DNA from: Lobosporangium transversale
Taxonomy: Eukaryota; Mortierellomycota; Mortierellomycetes; Mortierellales; Mortierellaceae
Reading direction: 5' to 3'
NCBI RefSeq assembly: GCF_002105155.1
Contig: NW_019028995.1
Location: forward strand, 62,001-126,000
DNA: 64,000 nt
Below are positions 1,861-3,490 of this stretch, piece after piece. The notes under the pieces were generated by a model. The model ran no database searches. It was not told where the DNA came from and saw nothing but the letters and a program-made list of their open reading frames with translations. Positions within the stretch are counted from its first letter, which is position 1, and each line of letters opens with the position of its first letter. The position numbers and the translations under genes were made by a program.

Positions 1861-2148
1861 CTCAATTTTTTTTTTTTTTTTTTTTAAGCAAAATACACAA
1901 GCACCCTTTAGTCACGTGTTTCAATTTATTGTCTTCTTAATCTGGCTAAAGCACTCGTCACTTGTCGTAAATCTGCTATTTACGTATCCTCTTCTTCATT
2001 ATTTCCATCATCATTCAGTACTTTTATCATTATTTCCTTTATCAATCCTAGTATTTAAATCACTTTGGCTTCTTTGCAAAACAGCATCCCTCTTTTCACT
2101 TTTGATGCTATTTTGCAGGTGAGCGACTTTTATTATTATTTGTAGTTT
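1861..2148. other. A/T-rich spacer between retroposon copies
   Basis: Pyrimidine-rich DNA without a supported gene. It holds the left copy (2086-2118) of a 33 bp direct repeat that recurs at 3166-3198. Confidence 0.5.
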
Positions 2149-2163
2149 TACTAAGTCAAGCTC

Positions 2164-2166
<3 letters not shown>
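2149..2166. repeat. Target-site duplication, left (copy 2)
   Basis: The 18 bp tactaagtcaagctcgtt is repeated exactly at 3128-3145 on the other side of retroposon copy 2. This marks the insertion boundaries. Confidence 0.93.
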
Positions 2167-2199
<33 letters not shown>

Positions 2200-2396
2200 A
2201 TAACAAGGACCCTCAGGGTCATGGGATTTATTTTCTACACTCTGTGAACAAAATGCTCCAGAAACTATAGTCAATAAACAGCTATTACTGTACAAACGAC
2301 AAGAGCCGCTGTATCCATGATTTCATAAACCTTGGCCGCCGTGGTTGGTACTCAAAGTCCACCTTTCCGACGTGGCCTGTTGCGCAACGCGACAAA

Positions 2397-2963
2397 TTAT
2401 CCGCTATCCATAGTCATCAAAAACTTCATTCCACCTAGCCGCTCCATCACGTCCAGTTTGGCTTTCCCAAGGTAAATGTCCCGGACTCGGTCATCCGCGA
2501 TCTTGTAGATCTCTTTTACATTCAGCTTCTGTCTTTGTCTGAGGGAAGGGACAAGGAAATCATTGCTACTACGTCTGTGCTCCCCAACACAGTTGCGTCC
2601 TCTAGCGCGTTTGCTCATAGCAGTGATTCCGCGAGCCTTTTCCCATTCAACGGTGACTTTACACCGTTTGTTCCAGATTTCTGTACGACCGAATTCCTCT
2701 ATGGCCTTGACGAAGCGCCCTGCCATATATGTAGCTATCCTTGTTGTTGTCTTGAAGCCAACTTTCCAACTCTGAGCAATGGACTTGGGCGTAAGTCCAT
2801 GGTAAATGTCCTGCACAGACCACTCTGGTGTGTGCTCTCTCTCTTCCTCATCACCGTCGTTCCTATCACCATGGCGTCGTACTTCTCGCACACCATCGAT
2901 ATGCATCTCTAGAGTTTTCCAAATGTAGTCCTCCTCTGCCGCAGTAAAAGTAGCGGAGAACAC
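2397..2963 (-). CDS. ORF inside retroposon copy 2, unknown basic protein
   Basis: A 188-residue ATG-to-stop frame in the same orientation as the retroposon transcript. The N-terminus is acidic (FTAAEEDYIWKTLEMHID, then DRNDGDEEE). The middle and C-terminal parts are basic and rich in Arg/Lys (SWKVGFKTTTRIATYMAGR, SKRARGRNC, PSLRQRQKLNVKEIYKI). I recognise no domain. Copy 1 shows that the frame once continued about 20 residues past the stop at 2397, so this copy may be slightly truncated. Whether it is translated, or is a captured host sequence carried along, cannot be told here. Confidence 0.4.
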   Translation of the reverse strand: MFSATFTAAEEDYIWKTLEMHIDGVREVRRHGDRNDGDEEEREHTPEWSVQDIYHGLTPKSIAQSWKVGFKTTTRIATYMAGRFVKAIEEFGRTEIWNKRCKVTVEWEKARGITAMSKRARGRNCVGEHRRSSNDFLVPSLRQRQKLNVKEIYKIADDRVRDIYLGKAKLDVMERLGGMKFLMTMDSG

Positions 2964-3039
2964 TAGGCTGTCTCGGAGAGAAAGTATAAAAACTCAAGCA
3001 AATCCCTGACCTGGCACATGTTTGCTTCACTTTATGTGC

Positions 3040-3118
3040 CTTAACCAGGACTCGAACCCGGCCCCTGGGCTAGACAGGAGGGTGCCCTGACGAGTATACT
3101 ACTCAGCCATTGGGCTTT
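3040..3118 (-). promoter_or_regulatory. tRNA-derived head with internal pol III promoter
   Basis: On the minus strand an A-box-like TGGCTGAGTAGT (3109-3098) lies about 40 nt before a perfect B box GGTTCGAGTCC (3058-3048). The B box sits in an intact T-arm (CCGGG loop CCTGG, one G-T pair). The acceptor stem is not convincing, so this is a tRNA-like promoter, not a working tRNA gene. It is the 5' end of retroposon copy 2. Confidence 0.75.
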
Positions 3119-3127
3119 GCCCAAAAC

Positions 3128-3145
3128 TACTAAGTCAAGCTCGTT
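3128..3145. repeat. Target-site duplication, right (copy 2)
   Basis: Exact match to 2149-2166; see that entry. Confidence 0.93.
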
Positions 3146-3165
3146 CTTATCAGTATTTATTAAAG

Positions 3166-3198
3166 ATCCCTCTTTTCACTTTTGATGCTATTTTGCAG
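3166..3198. repeat. 33 bp direct repeat of 2086-2118
   Basis: The 33 bp starting atccctcttttcactt is identical at 2086-2118. Without the retroposon the two copies would start about 101 bp apart, so a small local duplication existed before, or independently of, the insertion. Confidence 0.85.
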
Positions 3199-3351
3199 CA
3201 TTCTCCAGGACTATCATTGTTGATTTATGATCCTTTAGTGATCTATTTGTCAGATTATCTTCCTTTGGCACTTTGTCCATTTATGAATTTATCTTTTGGC
3301 ACTTCGTCCAATTTTTTATTATCATTTTGTTCATTTTCTGTCAATCTTTGG

Positions 3352-3404
3352 GATTATTGACGGATCTTTCCACGTCAGGATCATTGACAGATCTTTCCAC
3401 GTCA
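3352..3404. repeat. Two 27 bp tandem units upstream of tRNA-Asp
   Basis: Units starting at 3352 and 3379 share gat(t/c)attgac(g/a)gatctttccacgtca with two differences. They end 15 bp before the tRNA gene. A regulatory role is possible but not shown. Confidence 0.7.
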
Positions 3405-3418
3405 CACTCATGTGATCG

Positions 3419-3490
3419 TCTTTGGTAGTATAGTGGTCAGTATCTCCGCCTGTCACGCGGAAGACCCGGGTTCAATTCCCGGCCAAAGAG
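3419..3490 (+). tRNA. trnD: tRNA-Asp (GTC)
   Basis: A 72 nt cloverleaf. The acceptor TCTTTGG (3419-3425) pairs fully with CCAAAGA (3483-3489), with discriminator G3490. The D-arm contains the A box TAGTATAGTGGTCAGTA. The anticodon loop CTGTCAC gives anticodon GTC. The T-arm is CCGGG-TTCAATT-CCCGG. There is no intron. A short TTTCTTTT follows as the pol III terminator. The sequence fits eukaryotic tRNA-Asp. Confidence 0.96.

Follow-up and report, generated by a model that had tools for sequence, protein, structure and literature searches.

A composite of a SINE head and a truncated LINE 3' end upstream of a tRNA-Asp gene in Lobosporangium transversale

As far as the accessible portions of the published accounts go, the non-LTR elements TRE5-A and NLTR-B, which have an APE endonuclease, insert upstream of many tRNA genes, TRE5 doing so in opposite transcriptional orientation; the reported distances are 40-54 bp for TRE5 and 39-64 bp for NLTR-B, and NLTR-A/B carry an RNase H (PMC5911963, PMC5006619). 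Within those same portions, dictyostelids are the only organisms in which target-primed elements are described as homing on tRNA genes. Yeast Ty1 and Ty3 are likewise described as inserting at fixed places on the upstream side of pol III genes, with Ty1 entering upstream nucleosomes (PMC5911963). A second kind of precedent comes from Magnaporthe, where MINE and other WEIRD/Mg-SINE/MGL chimeras join one RNA copy to the 5'-truncated 3' end of a LINE, in the same orientation and within one duplication; the available text has a SINE with a LINE-like tail participating and describes template switching (PMC2104539).

Here we describe an insert at positions 2149-3145 of a 64,000-nucleotide stretch of the L. 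transversale genome (the window). The insert is very probably a single composite, made of the 5' 167 nt of a SINE and the 5'-truncated 3' end of a LINE, integrated by target-primed reverse transcription (TPRT) upstream of a tRNA-Asp gene and stemming from a LINE/SINE pair that faces tRNA genes.

Anatomy of the insert and origin of its parts

Features are given with window coordinates, strand and method.
2149-2166, no strand: target-site duplication, copy 1, tactaagtcaagctcgtt (direct reading)
2167-2198, minus: poly(A) tail, appearing as poly(T) on the plus strand (direct reading)
2183-2951, minus: LINE 3' end, 98.7% to positions 1487-2255 of the LINE reference piece Xc, low end overlapping the A tail (alignment)
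2397-2993, minus: open frame of 198 codons, stop to stop (ORF scan)
2951-3117, minus: SINE head, SINE positions 1-167, 99.4% to the reference SINE of L049 (alignment)
3048-3058, minus: B box, GGTTCGAGTCC (direct reading)
3099-3109, minus: A box, TGGCTGAGTAG (direct reading)
3118-3127, minus: 10 extra nt separating the duplication from SINE position 1 (alignment)
3128-3145, no strand: target-site duplication, copy 2, tactaagtcaagctcgtt (direct reading)
1963-3404, no strand: probable solo LTR, ends TGTCGTAA...CCACGTCA (ends and recurrence)
3419-3490, plus: tRNA-Asp (GTC) gene, head-to-head with the insert (Rfam / ARAGORN)

The insert is flanked by an 18-bp duplication that is recovered identically on the sense strand, 16 bp of it being unambiguous because its final two T merge into the poly(T) run, which ends at 2198. 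Both the flanking duplications and the poly(A) tail had been pointed out in an earlier note on this DNA, and both hold. The SINE head (167 bp) and the LINE part (769 bp) meet at 2951. Within the head, the two motifs fit the A-box and B-box consensus sequences. The boxes of the "tRNA-like head" proposed by the earlier note are therefore present, but its resemblance to a tRNA is not borne out: Rfam (E≤1) and ARAGORN reported no tRNA in the head, the sole tRNA reported there being the tRNA-Asp gene, so that "tRNA-like" rests on the A and B boxes. The composite as a whole is contained in the probable solo LTR, whose end lies 14 bp from the tRNA-Asp gene and whose identity as an LTR derives from its ends and its recurrence beside other tRNA genes, not from a database.

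The LINE part was traced by searching the insert against its own genome (42.7 Mb in 127 contigs; 40 of 194 candidates scored), which gave 41 matching places, each 486-997 nt long; the window accounts for two. Leaving the insert itself aside, 34 of the 40 matches start beyond the head, at query position 195-197, and the rest are truncated at other points. The earlier note had made its reading depend on other copies sharing the same head; in the copy count that it had proposed, the SINE head was present in two of these 40 matches (C45 = L025 and C39 = L032), with other LINE joints, and the note's main reading thus fails the condition that it had set itself. Upstream of the head point, the other copies continue into one common sequence, with 5' ends at many positions. 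Reading upstream in one copy yields a LINE of about 7.7 kb (summed pieces), with a 563-codon frame as ORF1 and Exo_endo_phos, RVT_1 and RNase_H domains in ORF2. Its very 5' end was found at 14 places: eight show 97-100% identity, and the other six are related sequences at 81-82%. Duplications flank 4/17 of the LINE-type loci tested, window included, and none was seen at the other 13. With an ORF for endonuclease and reverse transcriptase, 5' truncations, an A tail and duplications, this is an autonomous LINE of the APE type. The reference piece Xc was taken from a single copy of it, in L007.

The first ~14 codons of the 198-codon frame come from the SINE head and the remainder is the C-terminus of LINE ORF2. 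The 188-codon sense frame of the earlier note is thus open and represents the conserved end of ORF2, and the homology check suggested for it leads to the autonomous LINE with its endonuclease, reverse transcriptase and RNase H; a captured host gene is ruled out by the same identity. The suspected chimera of a SINE and a captured gene fragment came close, the head being that of a SINE and the fragment a LINE 3' end. A Pfam search with the short frame alone gave no match. The ORF2 C-terminus is open over at least 276 codons in 17/22 LINE copies; L024 is truncated and open through its LINE part, and L002, L007, L013 and L022 are broken. Relatives of this domain at 45-69% identity retain many invariant residues. 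Neither Pfam nor PDB gave it a substantial match: a Myb-like Pfam score (E 0.13) is weak and below cut-off, and a fold search of PDB with its AlphaFold model (mean pLDDT 68.7) gave no match at E≤0.001, the best E being 1.1.

Several related structures were also observed. The first of the two window copies ("copy 1", about 1163-1783) is related to the LINE part, to which it is 92% identical along its main stretch; inside it, 1783-1860 is a tail-only insertion of extreme 5' truncation, with poly(T) and ~19 nt of LINE 3' tail (1800-1843) between two aacaaaacaaacgccca (17 bp), and L010 has a similar one within a SINE head. L029 is an internally deleted LINE in which ~25 nt of the 5' end are fused directly to the element's last part. 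L092 and L108 (C51) hold a related LINE, ~66% identical over the aligned ORF2 stretch, that has a SINE head as its 5' end, lies 137 bp from a tRNA-Val gene and keeps the 3' half of ORF2 open. L071-L074 (C37, C96) represent a segmental duplication including a tRNA-Arg gene and a full-length LINE, the latter with a SINE inside its 5' region and a 20-nt repeat, TCCAAATAGCGGAATCGGAT, on either side of that SINE.

The head belongs to a SINE that is common in this genome. We obtained 41 matches to it at 98-100% (40 of 71 candidates scored), and an 18-nt motif of the head has at least 60 sites (56 exact and four with one mismatch). Its usual continuation is ~500 bp long (40 scored body copies at 98-100%), and the full SINE measures 671 bp, with a tail similar to the LINE 3' end. 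The best 30 of the 41 head matches were taken as the set of SINE loci; 23 of them have a tail recognised by our script, and duplications of 16-21 bp flank 18 of these 23, the exceptions being L034, L035, L046, L053 and L057. A 3' tail related to that of the partner LINE, an A tail and target-site duplications thus characterise the element as a SINE, with a predicted internal pol III promoter whose A and B boxes were read directly. Rfam (E≤1) and ARAGORN detected no tRNA-derived head in it, and "SINE with pol III boxes" is a safer name than "tRNA-derived SINE". The junction GTGTTCTCCGCTA followed by TTTT within 12 nt has one site in the genome, that of the window; since this exact junction is found once, the insert is a single composite and not a family. 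The same search lent no support to a stand-alone head RNA gene as the source of the fusions, as no head with a T run was found besides the window junction.

Joining of the SINE head and the LINE tail

In the scenario that we favour, the SINE would borrow the LINE proteins via its related tail, and the composite would have been integrated upstream of the tRNA-Asp gene through the LINE's target-primed reverse transcription. The two parts would have been joined when the reverse transcriptase changed templates, from LINE RNA to SINE RNA; this is the least certain part of the scenario, with about an even chance of being right. Fusions of this type recur: five of them (window, L025, L032, L092 and L104) break between SINE positions 165 and 172, and two break elsewhere, L010 near 95 and L076 near 133. 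Template switching is consistent with the one duplication that encloses the window copy and with the L092 and L076 joints at a LINE's first bases. The window copy consists of two RNA copies in one orientation within one duplication; L025 and L032 do not. No duplication was found, by eye or script, around L010, L025, L032, L076 and L092, nor does L104 show one. This absence counts against a switch, as do two further observations: the fused head is an incomplete SINE (1-167 of 671), whereas the template-switch chimeras described from Magnaporthe have a full-length RNA copy at that end, and its breakpoint coincides with a proven site of nested insertion, in L050.

The same parts and the same targeting could instead have given the fusion secondarily, and we hold this possible at somewhat below an even chance. 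A LINE would have landed in, or exactly beside, a resident SINE, whose last 504 bp were later lost, e.g. by deletion between poly(A) tracts or inside a SINE-LINE tandem sharing its target site. In L050, a young SINE sits within an older one at position 165, with a duplication of 149-165, and breakpoints at 165-172, as in the five fusions, would follow from a fixed nick at 148/149 with duplications of 16-21 bp. Furthermore, a SINE-LINE tandem at one site does exist, as SINE and LINE used the same bases in L022/L048, and an internal deletion there would yield the window structure. L071 is a proven case of a LINE nested in a SINE head; its 18-bp duplication removes it from the list of candidate fusions. 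However, the examined stretches of the window, L025, L032, L092 and L104 (the last interrupted by another insertion) contain no SINE remainder after the LINE part, while the remainder of the host element is kept in the nested pairs at L040, L050, L052 and L059, though not at L035. The joints of L092 and L076 at the LINE's very first bases are also something that random deletion would rarely produce, but nested insertion would. A strong RNA structure was rejected as the cause of the hot junction: compared with shuffled sequences, the SINE's first 200 nt showed no greater folding stability (z -1.2). We retain template switching as the preferred joining step by a narrow margin, the two routes being close to even.

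Spacing and orientation relative to tRNA genes

SINE and LINE tend to land at a near-fixed distance upstream of tRNA genes, with their 5' ends facing the gene, an association that the earlier note had missed. When tRNA genes were sought within 1.5 kb of the 30 best SINE loci, one was found upstream of 27 and, once, one downstream; L036, L037 and L042 had no tRNA gene within that distance. All 27 pairs are head-to-head (two-sided binomial, 1.5e-8). The gap between the tRNA gene and SINE position 1 is 121-161 bp at 20 loci (121-131 bp at 15 of them), 267-301 bp at six, including the window copy with its 301 bp, and 570 bp at one. The SINE-bearing loci comprise tRNA genes of 12 amino-acid types, so that insertion occurs at a set distance from many types of tRNA gene. 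Comparison of the 27 loci revealed no two with common DNA on the far side of the tRNA at an equal distance, indicating separate events rather than segmental duplicates. In a reverse census, 24 of 63 scored tRNA genes (of 1628 candidates) had a SINE no more than 1 kb away; 23 of these pairs are head-to-head and one runs in the same direction. Of the 23, 19 lie at 115-163 bp, in positions computed assuming a full-length SINE and with the pair C37/C96 being a segmental duplicate.

The LINE behaves similarly. At eight loci a distance of 124-141 bp separates its 5' end from a tRNA gene: L009 (126 bp), L016 (134 bp), L071 (127 bp, with the 18-bp duplication), L109 (138 bp) and, as fragments beneath later SINEs, L035, L040, L052 and L059. 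L109 is one of two LINE 5' ends predicted from tRNA positions and was found as predicted; at the other, L110, the 650 bp examined contained no LINE. Many LINE copies have no tRNA gene within 1.5 kb, a stretch beyond which the 5' ends of long copies fall. At L075, L077, L080, L081 and L082 the 5' end is absent from its predicted place, so these copies are truncated or rearranged.

The LTR-like sequences around these loci raise the question of what sets the distance. A recurring LTR-like end, of what we read as at least three families and in either orientation, lies 8-24 bp from the tRNA in 19/27 flanks; at L047 it is found only at 130 bp, and 7/27 loci have none. In the 121-161 bp group, which holds the tightest gaps, 13 of the 20 loci lie in such flanks, at 121-138 bp, and are not independent of one another in sequence, which counts against the case for targeting; the other seven, at 123-161 bp, lie outside them. 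One could thus imagine an indirect targeting, in which the elements recognise the LTRs that adjoin tRNA genes, or some sequence or hairpin within these LTRs, all the more as insertions repeat at identical bases within one flank family. We consider this very unlikely: L039, L053, L055, L056, L059 and L060 have no near LTR-like end, and L047 has one only at 130 bp, yet they show the 123-161 bp gap, and at least three LTR-like families, read from either end, all yield 121-138 bp. The spacing being the same across different flanking DNA, it is probably the tRNA gene that sets it for SINE and LINE insertions. The solo-LTR-like repeats themselves (window 1963-3404, flanks of L031-L060) may represent a second, LTR-type class of tRNA-gene-targeted elements. 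Downstream of the tRNA genes, L033, L035, L044, L053 and L059 have repeats several hundred bp long in common, as do L041, L055 and L058; their distances vary (roughly 20-230 bp), and they are perhaps elements targeting downstream of tRNA genes.

The LINE/SINE pair thus very probably integrates with its 5' end toward tRNA genes, mostly ~126 bp and less often ~290 bp upstream, possibly by tethering of the LINE proteins to the pol III machinery or to the chromatin associated with it. The two main gaps differ by ~165 bp, which would amount to about one nucleosome repeat. Some of the SINEs concerned lie in older LINEs whose remainder is kept: in L040 and L052 at 267 and 287 bp from the tRNA, and in L059 at 159 bp. 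A broader reading, which we put forward tentatively and rate just short of evenly likely, is that SINE and LINE share a pol III-directed targeting into two chromatin-phased slots (~126 and ~126+165 bp), head-to-head and with a step set by the nucleosome, and that SINE heads and LINE tails become fused repeatedly in the arrays so built, the window being one case.

Status of the composite and comparison with known systems

The composite is a one-off fusion of two mobile elements that are common in the genome, not a new protein-coding element. That it should represent an independent family of pol III-headed, protein-coding, non-autonomous retroposons, the distinct element of the earlier note, is hardly credible, for although both boxes persist in the head and the frame runs uninterrupted through the junction, a search of the genome recovered that junction only once, the frame derives from the C-terminal end of ORF2 in an autonomous LINE, and the head is part of a non-coding SINE.

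We know of no tRNA-gene-targeted SINE, nor of a non-LTR system so targeted outside dictyostelids; if the two-slot reading is true, these would be the first of each. Searches of an open-access library (most subscription papers being outside its scope) turned up neither a SINE targeted to tRNA genes nor a fungal non-LTR element with this habit among the papers listed. The LINE/SINE pair would then be an independent origin of the "safe haven" habit and, since a gene-less SINE lands where the LINE does, it would also indicate that the LINE proteins carry the targeting with them. The recurrence of SINE-LINE fusions at one type of address further offers a natural series on how SINEs acquire new tails.

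Among fungal LINEs, the closest type is presumably Tad, with which this LINE shares an ORF1 followed by an ORF2 with APE, RT and RNase H, and from which it may differ in its long C-terminal domain. The closest analogues of the targeting are the TRE5/NLTR elements of dictyostelids and yeast Ty1/Ty3. With TRE5-A and NLTR-B the pair shares the APE endonuclease and the position upstream of tRNA genes, with TRE5 the opposite transcriptional orientation, and with NLTR-A/B the RNase H; it differs in distance (~126 and ~290 bp here, 40-54 and 39-64 bp there) and in having a SINE partner, of which the accessible parts of the dictyostelid accounts make no mention. We regard the pair as TRE-like by behaviour and do not file it as a TRE/NLTR member. 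The MINE-type chimeras of Magnaporthe are likewise fungal fusions of an RNA copy and a truncated LINE, in a single orientation and within one duplication. Their 5' part, as far as the available text goes, is mostly a full-length WEIRD RNA, whereas the window copy has the first quarter of a SINE in its place, and that text mentions no targeting of tRNA genes (PMC2104539). Finally, the insertion at fixed places upstream of pol III genes resembles that described, in the portions available, for yeast Ty1 and Ty3, but these are LTR elements that use an integrase and not target-primed reverse transcription.
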